This document shows, one piece after another, positions 15,759 through 24,338 of a DNA stretch of 64,000 nucleotides. A program made the translations under genes and the position numbers. Within the stretch, counting starts at the first letter, position 1, and every line of letters begins with the position of its first letter. Below the pieces are notes generated by a model. The model was not told where the DNA came from. It searched no databases and saw only the letters and a list, made by a program, of their open reading frames with translations. The stretch is from Clostridiales bacterium (GTDB lineage: Bacteria > Bacillota > Clostridia > Oscillospirales > Oscillospiraceae), in assembly GCA_022764045.1 (NCBI GenBank), contig JALERU010000028.1:1-64000 (forward strand). Reading direction: 5' to 3'.

Positions 15759-17162
15759 TTAGGTTCCGTTGTGGTTGAAGGCCCCCGCCTCCTTCTGGGT
15801 CAGGTTGTCACAGATCCGGTGGGTCTGGAAATAGGTCAGGGCCCGGTGGAAGTCCCCCACCAGCAGTTGGGCCAGGTTTCGCCCAAAGCCCTGGCGGACC
15901 AGGATGCGCTGCACCACGATGTCCTGGGCGTTTTGGGGCAGGGAGTAGGCGGGCACCTGCCAGCCCCGGACCCGCAGGCGGTCGGCAAAGTCGTAGAGGT
16001 TGAAGGAGACCGCCGCCTCCGGCTTCAGTCGCCAGGTGATGGCGGGAATCCCCTGCTGGGGGTCGCCGCCAAAAATCACCTGGAACACCCCCATCTTCTC
16101 GATCTCCCGGGCCAGGTACTGGGCGGTTTCATAGCAGCTCATGTGGATCATTTGATACCCTGCAAAGCCCAGGCGGAGGAACTGGTAATACTGGGCGATG
16201 ACCTGTCCTGCCGGCCGGGAAAAATTCAGTTGAAAGACTGCCATCTCTCCTCCCAGATAGTTCACCCGAAAGACCAGCCGCTCGGGCAGATCCTTCTTAT
16301 CCCGCCACAGGATAAAGCCGCAGCCCAGGGGGGCCAGGCCGAACTTATGACCGGAGGTGCTGATGGACTTCACCCGGGGATTGCGGAAATCCCACTTCAG
16401 GTCCGGGGCGCAAAAGGGAGCCACGAAGGCCCCAGAGGCCCCGTCCACATGGAGCTCCAGGTCCAGGCCCTTCTCCTGTTGGATACGGTCCAGGGCATGG
16501 CATAGGTCCTCCACCGGCTCGTACTGGCCGGTGAAGGTGAGGCCCAGGGTGGTGACCACCCCGATGGTGTTCTCGTCCAAATAGGGCTCCATGGCCTGGG
16601 GCGTCAGGCCATAGCAGCCCTCCTCCATGGGGACCTGCCGCAGCTCGATGTCCCAGTACCGGGCGAACTTCTCCCAGCACACCTGCACCGGGCCGGTGAC
16701 CAGGTTGGGCCGGCTGGTGTCCTGGCCCGCCCGCTGGCGCCGCTCCTTCCACCGGTAATACATGGCCAGTCCCCCCAGCATGCAGGCCTCGGAGGAGCCC
16801 ACGGTGGAGGTCCCCAGGGTGTTGGCCCCTTCGGGTCCGTTCCAAAGGTTGGCCAGCATGTGGATGCAGCGCCCCTCGATCTCCGCCGTCTGGGGGTATT
16901 CGTCCTTGTCGATCATGTTTTTATCGATGCACAGGTCCATGAGCTCCCGGATTTCCGCGTCCTCATAGGTCTGGCAAAAGGTGGCTAAGTTTTGCTTGGC
17001 GTTGCCGTCCAAAAAGAGCTCGTCCCGCAGCAGCTCCAGGGTGGCTCTCGAGTCGGAGGCGCCCCGGGGGATTCGATACTTGGGGAGCTCTAAGGGAGAG
17101 GTCGCTGTGCCATACACCTTGGCCTCCGCCTTGTCGCGAATGTGAGCTTGTTGATGGATCAT
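15759..17162 (-). CDS. gadB: Glutamate decarboxylase
   Basis: [60 protein letters not shown] (PLP lysine). Confidence 0.94.
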
Positions 17163-17214: not shown

Positions 17215-17970
17215 TTATCCTTTCATCTTCCGCAAATCCCAGCGGGAGGACACCCCGCACTTGCGGTACAGATTTTGCAGGTGCTTTAATAAAGTATTCC
17301 GGCTGATCATCAGCTTATCCAAAATTTCCTCGTTGTTCAGGTCCTGAAAGATCAGCCCCAGCACCTCTCCCTCCCGACGGGTCAGGCCGTGGCGCTGGAT
17401 GAGCTCCTCCAGGGATTGGGCCCTCTGGGAAGCGCTCTCAGGCGCCTGGCTGCAGCGCCAGCAGGCCAGGTTGATGTGATTGGCCAAGGACTGCAGATAA
17501 AAGGCCTCCTGGTCGGTAAACAGGCCGTCGGCCCGGGTGCGGTAGAGGGCCAGGCGGCCCATGGGCCGTCCGGCATAGGTCAGGTTCATCTGGATGCAGT
17601 CGTAGATTCCATAGTTGACATAGGTCTCCCGATAGCTGGGGGAAGCAAAGCGGCTGTCTCCTGACAAGATCTCGCTGTCCCGCACTGCCATCGACTCGGG
17701 GGCGTGGCTGAGCCAGATGGTATAGCCCTGGTCGATGTTCTCCAGCCACTTCCGCTCTCCCTCCTCAAACTCCTTGGGCCGGCAAAAGGGGTCCCGGTGA
17801 ATGAGCTCTTGGGTCTCTGGGTCGATCTCAATGGTGATAAAGCTGCCGTAGGCATAGGGCAGGACGAGTTTAAGCTGGGCCAACAGGGTGTTCTTAAACT
17901 CCTCCATGGTCTGGCAGGCGTGAAGCCGGTACACCACCTCGTTATAGAGCAAAAAATCATTCTTTTCCAT
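17215..17970 (-). CDS. LuxR-type HTH regulator, paralog 1
   Basis: C-terminal [51 protein letters not shown]. Confidence 0.88.
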
Positions 17971-17991
17971 GGCAATCCCTCCTCTGCCTGG

Positions 17992-18744
17992 TCAGGGCCG
18001 CAGCTTCCGCAGGTCCCAGCGGGAGGATACCCCGCACTTGCGGTACAGGTTTTGCAGGTGCTTGAGCAGGGTGTGACGGGAAATGTGGAGCTTTTCCAGA
18101 ATCTCATCGTTGTTCAGATCTTGAAAGACCAAGCCCAGCACCTCGGTCTCCCGGCGGGTCAGGTCGTGCTCCTGGACCAGCTCCTCCAGGGTCTTGGCCC
18201 GGTCCTGCTGGCTGGCTCCCCGGCGGGACATGGTGTAATAGGCATAGTTGATGTGGCCGGCCAGGGCCCGTAAGTAAAAAGCTTCCTCATCGGTAAACAC
18301 CCCGTCGGCCCGGGTGCGGTAGAGGGTGAGCAGGGCCATCACCTGGTGGTCATAGGCCAGGTTCATGCTCATGGTGTCGTAGATGTTGTACTGCAGATAG
18401 AGCTCCTGAAAAATGGTGCTCTCCAGCCGGGCCTCCCCTGCCAGGTCGCTGCTGCGCACCACGATGGACTCAGGGGCGTGGCTCACCCACAGGCTCTCGT
18501 CCTCATGGTCCCGGTCGATCCAGGCCTCCTCCAGGGCAGTGAAGCTCTCCGGCAGGCAAAAGGGATCGCTGTGGCGGATCTCCCGGGTCTGGGGGTCGAT
18601 ATCCACTACAATCAGACTGGCGTAAGCGTAGGGGATAATCAGTTTGATCTGGGCCAGAATGGAGCGTTTCAAATCATCCATGTCTTGGCAGGTGTGAATG
18701 TGATAGATAATTTCATTATATAGCAAGAAATCATTCTTTTCCAT
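17992..18744 (-). CDS. LuxR-type HTH regulator, paralog 2 (tandem duplicate)
   Basis: Shares [11 protein letters not shown] start and [47 protein letters not shown] with paralog 1. Confidence 0.88.
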   Translation of the reverse strand: MEKNDFLLYNEIIYHIHTCQDMDDLKRSILAQIKLIIPYAYASLIVVDIDPQTREIRHSDPFCLPESFTALEEAWIDRDHEDESLWVSHAPESIVVRSSDLAGEARLESTIFQELYLQYNIYDTMSMNLAYDHQVMALLTLYRTRADGVFTDEEAFYLRALAGHINYAYYTMSRRGASQQDRAKTLEELVQEHDLTRRETEVLGLVFQDLNNDEILEKLHISRHTLLKHLQNLYRKCGVSSRWDLRKLRP

Positions 18745-18819: not shown

Positions 18820-18886
18820 GAGATTTTCCGGGGAAAAATAAGTATTTCTAACCAGCCCGCAGTACAATCTTCCTCAAAAGTGAGAA

Positions 18887-19060
18887 TTGATGAAGGAAAT
18901 CTTTCGTGTTACAATAGAAAAATGAAAAGGCGTCGTCTCAAATGACCTTCCTTCCGTCTTTTCAAAACCTTCCTTTCTTGTTCAAGTTACCTTTCTTTCC
19001 TTTCGAAAAAGCTGTCTCCCTCCGGAAGAATCCGGAGGGAGACAGCTTTTTCGTTTGTCT
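18887..19060 (+). ncRNA. Candidate sRNA: promoter, pyrimidine-rich body, intrinsic terminator
   Basis: TTGATG-17-TACAAT (18887-18915); body with CCUUCCUUCC, CCUUCCUUUC, CCUUUCUUUCC; perfect 23-bp terminator stem 19004-19026/19031-19053, AGAA loop, T-rich tail; only a 7-codon ORF after the promoter. Confidence 0.6.
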
Positions 19061-19166
19061 CTTTTTTCATTATTTTTAATCATTTATACGCATAGGAAGT
19101 ACTTCTTTTTCCCTTATTAAATAACGCATACCTAATCTATATAGGAATTTTCACTTGGTTTAGCCA

Positions 19167-19382
19167 TTGATTCTAAGGCCAACTCGGGGTATGATACAGG
19201 CAGATCAAGAAACCGCGGTCTTGCCAATCAGCCTTATGAACAAAAGTTTAGAAAAGGAGAGCTTATTGGCAAGAAGCCAACCCAGGCAACCAAGCGCCTG
19301 CGCAACACCTGATCTCGTTTCTCATCTCTCATATATGGCCGCCCCCCGCTGAACAGAAGCAGCGGGGGGCGGCCCTTTTTCT
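19167..19382 (+). ncRNA. Candidate structured small transcript, possibly encoding a short peptide
   Basis: TTGATT-17-TATGAT (19167-19195); CTTGCCAAT 19220-19228 complementary to ATTGGCAAG 19265-19273; terminator stem 19337-19350/19361-19374 plus T-run. Confidence 0.55.
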
Positions 19383-21390: not shown

Positions 21391-22311
21391 ATGCAGGTCA
21401 CTGAAATTCTCACCGACCACACCCTCATGGCTCTGGAGCTTCGAGGGAGCGAGGATTACCCCATCCGCTTCTACCTGGACATCATGGACGAGTTCGACCT
21501 GCGGGGCATCCACTGGCACTGGCACCCGGAGCTGGAGTTCAACGTCATCACCCGGGGCACCATGGAGTATTACGTGGAGAACGAGCACCACACCCTCACC
21601 GCCGGCCAGGGCATTGTAAAAAACGCCAACGTTCTCCACATGGCCGAGCCCGCCGCCCACTCCCCCGACGCGGAGATGTTCTCCGTCATCATGGACGCGG
21701 CCTTTATCGCCCCGCCCCGCAGCGTCATTTATCAGAAATACGTGGCCCCCCTCCTGGGCGCCCAGGGGCTGCGGAGCCTCACCCTCTCCCCGGACCTGCC
21801 CTGGCAGCGGCAGATCTTAGACGATCTCCGCCAGGCCTACGCCCTGAGCCAGACGGAAACCGGGGCCTATGAGCTTCACATCCACCGGCTCATGTGCCGG
21901 GTGTGGCAGGGGATTTTTGAGCACGCCAGCCAGCTCCCCCGCCACGACCTGACTCTAACCCAGCGCACTGACCAGGTGCGGGTAAAGGCCATGATCTCCT
22001 ACATTCAGGCTCACTTCCGGGAAAAGGTCACCCTGGACCAGGTGGCCCAGGCGGCCAGCGTCAGCCGGAACACCTGCCTGAACGCCTTCCGCCGGGTGCT
22101 GGGCTTGTCCCCCATGGAATATCTGATCAACCAGCGCCTGGAGCACGCCCTCCACCTGCTTCTCACCAGTGACCTGCCCGTGGCCCAGGTGGCTGAGACC
22201 TGCGGCTTTGGGGACGCCAGCTACTTCGGCAAGGCCTTTCGGAAAAAAACCGGCCTCTCCCCCACCCAATACCGCCACCGCCGCCTCCAGCGGCCGGGGG
22301 ATTCCCTTTGA
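21391..22311 (+). CDS. AraC-family regulator with N-terminal cupin
   Basis: HWHPELEFNVITRGTMEYYVE; HTH VTLDQVAQAASVSRNTCLNAFRRVLGLSPMEYL...FGDASYFGKAFRKKTGLSPTQYR. Confidence 0.94.
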   Translation: MQVTEILTDHTLMALELRGSEDYPIRFYLDIMDEFDLRGIHWHWHPELEFNVITRGTMEYYVENEHHTLTAGQGIVKNANVLHMAEPAAHSPDAEMFSVIMDAAFIAPPRSVIYQKYVAPLLGAQGLRSLTLSPDLPWQRQILDDLRQAYALSQTETGAYELHIHRLMCRVWQGIFEHASQLPRHDLTLTQRTDQVRVKAMISYIQAHFREKVTLDQVAQAASVSRNTCLNAFRRVLGLSPMEYLINQRLEHALHLLLTSDLPVAQVAETCGFGDASYFGKAFRKKTGLSPTQYRHRRLQRPGDSL

Positions 22312-24085: not shown

Positions 24086-24120
24086 AAAAAGCCTCCCAGC
24101 GCATACATGCCTGGAAGGTC
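24086..24120 (-). terminator. Expression-platform terminator of TPP riboswitch
   Basis: Minus strand CCTTCCAGGCATGTATGCGCTGGGAGGCTTTTTT. Confidence 0.75.
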
Positions 24121-24126
24121 CTCTGG

Positions 24127-24216
24127 TGGGTTTCCTACGCCGGCATTATCCGGATCAGGTTCCCGGGTCAGGGCGGCGCTACGCCCTCTCTCAGCCGGCA
24201 TGCGCCAGCTCCCCGA
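24127..24216 (-). promoter_or_regulatory. TPP riboswitch (THI element)
   Basis: Minus strand GGGGAGCTGGCGCATGCCGGCTGAGAGAGGG...CCCTGACCCGGGAACCTGATCCGGATAATGCCGGCGTAGGAAACC. Confidence 0.96.
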
Positions 24217-24338
24217 TGGATTGTAGTGCTATTATAACCCAGCGGCAAAGCTCTGTCAAGGCAAATTTCACAAAGAAAAACCCGGAGAGCGTGCCCTACC
24301 CTCACATCCTCCACAATTCCGCTTGGCATACCCTTTTC

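Follow-up and report, generated by a model that had tools for sequence, protein, structure and literature searches.

A candidate small regulatory RNA gene divergent from a LuxR-type regulator in the gut genus Evtepia

The window analysed here, a stretch of DNA 64,000 nucleotides in length, carries what is, on sequence grounds, a well supported stand-alone small RNA (sRNA) gene divergent from a gene for a LuxR-type regulator, and the undescribed regulatory RNA at this locus is probably real. Support for the gene comes from a promoter, a terminator, a local and extreme enrichment in C and U and the presence of a conserved structured RNA in four congeners. As to function, we rather favour an RNA acting in trans to block translation through pairing with Shine-Dalgarno (SD) sequences. 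The preliminary description of this DNA, which proposed such a gene with anti-SD action, thereby stands for the gene itself, while the action is plausible only. The RNA gene comprises the following features.

18873..18884, forward strand: operator-like box CTCAAAAGTGAG upstream of the promoter (from alignment; putative function)
18887..18915, forward strand: sigma-A-type promoter with extended -10, aligning collinearly with those of the RNA in the relatives
18922..19058, forward strand: predicted sRNA of ~137 nt (start ±2 nt, end inside the T tail), with a positional counterpart in four species
18923..18964, forward strand: weak 5' hairpin of the sRNA, enclosing C/U patch 1 (fold prediction)
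18946-18955, forward strand: C/U patch 1, CCTTCCTTCC / CCUUCCUUCC, a CCTTYCTTYC match
18968-18977, forward strand: C/U patch 2, CCTTCCTTTC / CCUUCCUUUC, a CCTTYCTTYC match, predicted unpaired
18990-19000, forward strand: C/U patch 3, CCTTTCTTTCC / CCUUUCUUUCC, a CCTTYCTTYC match, predicted unpaired
19004..19067, forward strand: intrinsic terminator, a perfect 23-bp hairpin (19004-19053) with AGAA loop and T-rich tail

The promoter originally proposed, TTGATG (18887-18892) and TACAAT (18910-18915) with a 17-nt spacer, was confirmed and found to possess in addition an extended -10 TG at 18907-18908. Around the sRNA, six promoter-like sites were seen against 1.7 expected, so that the promoter site by itself is weak evidence. 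The transcript, earlier put at ~130 nt, is here predicted to span ~137 nt from promoter to terminator. The terminator is just as had been claimed, and the letters after its hairpin are TTTGTCTCTTTTTT. The predicted fold of the sRNA has an energy of -56.9 kcal/mol (z = -9.2), a value that comes nearly entirely from the terminator. Runs of A and T flank the terminator stem on both sides, and it could therefore also halt transcription of the minus strand. The earlier statement that there is no meaningful ORF is fair: there is just a 7-codon ATG ORF (MKRRRLK), which opens at the presumed sRNA start, and a Phe-rich 45-residue frame that crosses the terminator, and reading of the sequence gave no signs that either is used. 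Searches of the curated Rfam families gave no gathering-level match for the sRNA, the low-threshold matches all scoring well under gathering scores, and its own genome holds no further copy.

The pattern CCTTYCTTYC has only three matches in the 64 kb (1.37 expected by chance), and these are the three patches, all inside 54 nt of one strand. A search for all three together gave one occurrence in the window's own genome and none in 400 others from the family. All three patches resemble the ribosomal anti-SD. Their setting was assessed quantitatively against 69 strong terminator-like hairpins found in 317 kb of the same genome, the 60 nt upstream of each being scored. The window terminator ranked first of the 69 both in upstream pyrimidine share (0.80, against a mean of 0.49 and sd of 0.09) and in motif count (6, against a mean of 0.19). 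The claim that the patches are single-stranded holds for patches 2 and 3, for which the predicted unpaired probability is 0.84-0.94, but only partly for patch 1 (0.4-0.7), since the latter lies inside the weak 5' hairpin.

Firmer than the window RNA itself is a conserved RNA in relatives, reached by locating the corresponding LuxR gene across the genus and reading the sequence divergent from it. Four other Evtepia species (G004, G005, G006 and G007) have there a structured RNA of ~175 nt; the loci are L047, L049, L050 and L051 (about 1120-1430; in L049, 2320-2630). Behind a TATAAT box its gene has a 5' hairpin that varies in sequence, yet folds in each of the four species; after this come a junction of three helices, closed by CUGA/UCAG, the C/U-rich stretch CUUCCUCCACACCUUCAUUCUCUUCCUUUUCAU and a GC terminator. 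Alignment columns 102-160, 59 in succession, are invariant in all four despite a LuxR DNA identity of only 78-87%, which is strong evidence that this RNA is under constraint at the level of individual bases. In the covariation test, made on too few sequences, the tested helices showed no double changes, and the two in the 5' hairpin depend on uncertain alignment.

This RNA is absent from Rfam, from the remaining Evtepia genomes and from 396 genomes of the order, and gave no match in the viral collection or phage records. Across 401 genomes of the family, a covariance model found one true match (G004), the rest being strong GC terminators. Read as its reverse complement, the conserved C/U stretch gives a start region, GAAAAGGAAGAGAAUGAAGGUG, in which an SD-like GGAAG is followed by AUG. 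An antisense protein encoded opposite the RNA (GGAAG, then ATG AAG GTG...) was considered and rejected, as in-frame stops follow after ~11 codons in G006 and G007. An order-wide search with the core of the relatives' RNA returned a single 31-nt match (87%) in G428, from another family of the order; it was rejected as an RNA gene, being the antisense of a gene start. That gene start (L209) is a naturally occurring instance of a start region such as the relatives' C/U stretch would cover.

In our reading the window RNA is a positional counterpart of the relatives' RNA with its body rewritten or replaced, homology being unproven, because position, orientation and promoter agree and the body does not, or not visibly. 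Both RNAs are divergent from LuxR in the same orientation, and the distance from the end of the -10 box to the LuxR start is 171 nt in the window versus 164 nt in all four relatives. Alignment of the window promoter with those of three relatives gave local scores of 26-28 (null 15 ± 3), each reached by 3 of 1000 shuffles, and with that of G006 a score of 21, reached by 14 of 1000; the similarity is in part that of the general promoter consensus. An upstream AAAAGTGAG box is also present in the window promoter region, collinear with the relatives. At the place of the operator-like box CTCAAAAGTGAG the relatives have a palindrome, TTCACTAAAAGTGA, of which G004 and G005 each contain one exact occurrence, at the LuxR-divergent locus. 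As a regulon-wide site the palindromic box was rejected, its count elsewhere being not above that of the reversed control.

The two RNAs also share a C/U-rich stretch before the terminator, but its sequence differs, neither the three-helix junction nor the invariant CUUCCUCCACACCUUCAUUCUCUUCCUUUUCAU was found in the window RNA, and the bodies are not alignable. The relatives' covariance model R1 gives the window RNA 25.5 bits, a figure within the 20-37 bits that ordinary GC terminators reach, and homology of the body is thus left without support. Blastn with the window RNA against 15 further genomes of Evtepia and 400 of the family found no sequence homologue and returned only promoter, RBS-antisense and chance matches; the viral collection yielded nothing. 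Such an RNA is missing from this place in G001, in G002 and in E. gabavorous, the closest relative for LuxR1; in E. gabavorous the intergenic region is ~125 nt shorter, with neither patches nor terminator. The conservation in close relatives required in the preliminary description is therefore not one of exact sequence, but position, promoter, C/U stretch and terminator do have counterparts in four species.

In the mechanism that we favour, RNA polymerase would start near 18922 and stop at the 23-bp terminator, and the operator-like palindrome around -45 may place the RNA under the control of the neighbouring LuxR protein itself or another local regulator. The unpaired C/U stretch, to judge from its composition and by analogy, would pair with the purine-rich ribosome-binding sites of at least one mRNA and block initiation of translation, the three patches serving as redundant contact sites in the manner of Listeria LhrC. 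The four other Evtepia species would possess the same gene with a different and strongly conserved body.

Pairing was assessed by duplex computations comparing 224 predicted start regions of the window's own genome with gene interiors. The C/U region prefers start regions by -4.6 kcal/mol, compared to +6.7 for sequences of random composition. Dinucleotide-shuffled versions, however, yield -3.65 ± 0.71, and 5 of 60 reach the real value; since the shuffles nearly match the C/U region, the SD-pairing signal is mostly compositional. SDs rich in purines (AGGAGG, AAGGAG, AAAGGA, GAAAGG) are the norm here. As composition, then, the anti-SD property claimed earlier is real; as a specific function it is putative and plausible, with no target fixed. 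Similarly, SD-like complements of the relatives' seed occur before ATG 59 times in G004 versus 12 in the reversed control, a roughly 5-fold excess that is mostly SD composition. Among the candidate targets inspected (argB, spoIIIAC, pyrD, an AzlD-like gene and a symporter, the names being assigned from sequences) none was consistent across species. As a shared target argB was rejected: its start is complementary in G004, G006 and the window's own genome and eroded in G005 and G007.

The near-equality of the shuffles, together with the failure to find a target among the inspected candidates, would also fit an RNA that is transcribed but whose C/U tracts pair with no mRNA, serving instead as a tract for ribosomal S1 or another protein, as an RNA sponge or merely to keep the terminator free. 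C/U-rich stretches do precede terminators elsewhere in the family, in a selected sample. Such an RNA is nevertheless unlikely, in that no other terminator of the 69 from the same genome comes near the window's pyrimidine value, and the base-invariant C/U tract of the four relatives suggests base-specific contacts.

A second alternative is a cis-acting leader or attenuator, in which the structured RNA senses something and the terminator controls what lies downstream on that strand, which in relatives is a gene for a small membrane protein and one for an MFS transporter. An MFS gene does follow further along this strand in E. gabavorous, G004 and G007, and in the relatives' RNA the three-helix junction adjoins the terminator. 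Against this, terminator and small ORF are set apart by a further promoter (window 19167-19195), conserved and with TATGAT in all, and no obvious antiterminator pairing was seen by eye. Behind this promoter of their own stand the small membrane-protein ORF and then the MFS gene in E. gabavorous, and likewise the MFS gene in G004 and G007. Moreover, the downstream gene of the relatives is gutted in the window, where a large internal deletion has left only its last codons, followed by the convergent CoA-transferase, and the first forward-strand gene after the RNA begins only at 21391; a purely cis role is accordingly quite unlikely. That RNA and terminator are intact despite the ORF remnant argues for a role in trans. 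The promoter region concerned, window 19120-19330 (ATTTTCAC...CATTGA...TATGATACAG), is common to E. gabavorous, G002 and G004 and precedes the small membrane-protein ORF in E. gabavorous and G002; all that is left of this ORF in the window is its RBS together with ~14 codons from the end (GKKPTQATKRLRNT).

That the locus is non-functional, whether as a chance promoter beside a terminator, possibly bidirectional, or as a degenerate copy of the RNA seen in the relatives, is very improbable given a terminator perfect over 23 bp, an intact promoter and three regular patches unlike the product of decay, even though the body has no sequence homologue in any collection searched, E. gabavorous lacks the RNA, the conserved three-helix junction is missing and the small ORF nearby is in decay.

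For a trans-acting RNA, comparison with known sRNAs is instructive. An unpaired UCCC motif is a mark of the classical Firmicute sRNAs. None was found in the window sRNA, the single TCCC of which, at 19017, falls within the terminator stem, and the likeness to RsaE and csRNAs drawn earlier is consequently a loose one. RsaE/RoxS, RNAIII, SprD and FsrA resemble the window patches in having a C-rich motif that is unpaired and presumed to bind the SD; they differ from the window sRNA in the position of UCCC, and the latter matches no Rfam family. By the features tested here, the window RNA is outside every named sRNA family.

The closest mechanistic analogue would appear, by inference, to be LhrC. 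LhrC1-5 of Listeria monocytogenes possess three redundant CU-rich sites, in loops and single-stranded stretches, that cover the ribosome-binding region; LhrC is present in five copies, has UCCC cores and is induced by LisRK (PMC4132741). Common to LhrC and the window RNA are the small size with a terminator, the three redundant CU-rich sites and, putatively for the window RNA, covering of a ribosome-binding region and control by a regulator independent of the neighbourhood. By contrast, the window RNA is single-copy with CUUCC/CUUUCC cores, and it has a LuxR gene as its neighbour and comes from a clostridial genus of the gut, whereas LhrC responds to LisRK; no sequence relation was found between them.

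If real, the RNA would represent an undescribed sRNA family of a gut genus, situated beside a LuxR regulator and, in the window's own genome, glutamate decarboxylase. The stretch invariant in four species offers a concrete seed for a target search. The window RNA would be a case of an sRNA keeping its address and promoter and changing its pairing region, permitting a test of turnover in sRNA target sets. We raise, tentatively and as a doubtful possibility, a fuller version in which place and promoter were kept across the genus while in one lineage the body was rewritten, from a base-perfect antisense of a start region to three generic anti-SD repeats, so coupling LuxR signalling, and possibly glutamate/GABA metabolism, to other mRNAs.

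Evtepia is a common gut genus known for its use of GABA. The window is assigned to the genome of a member of this genus, a relative of E. gabavorous, through protein matches of LuxR1 in Evtepia gabavorous and Candidatus Evtepia faecigallinarum. The neighbouring genes on the LuxR side are these.

17992..18744, reverse strand: LuxR1, LuxR-type regulator (GerE domain), the divergent neighbour, 88% identical to E. gabavorous KLE1738
17215..17970, reverse strand: LuxR2, second LuxR-type regulator in tandem (GAF + GerE)
15759..17162, reverse strand: glutamate decarboxylase (gadB), downstream of the LuxR pair (TIGR01788, 597 bits, cut-off 380)

With the sRNA on the forward strand and these three genes on the reverse, the divergence from a LuxR/gadB unit noted previously is borne out. 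On the other side of the sRNA lie a CoA-transferase-like gene, a MaoC-type hydratase and a 3-hydroxyacyl-CoA dehydrogenase. The tandem LuxR paralogues of the window (17215-18744) are 59% identical to each other, and relatives with the conserved RNA have a single LuxR there, nearer to LuxR2 (60-62%) than to LuxR1 (53-56%). Further along the window, at 24115-24225 on the minus strand, is a TPP riboswitch (Rfam RF00059, 58.3 bits).
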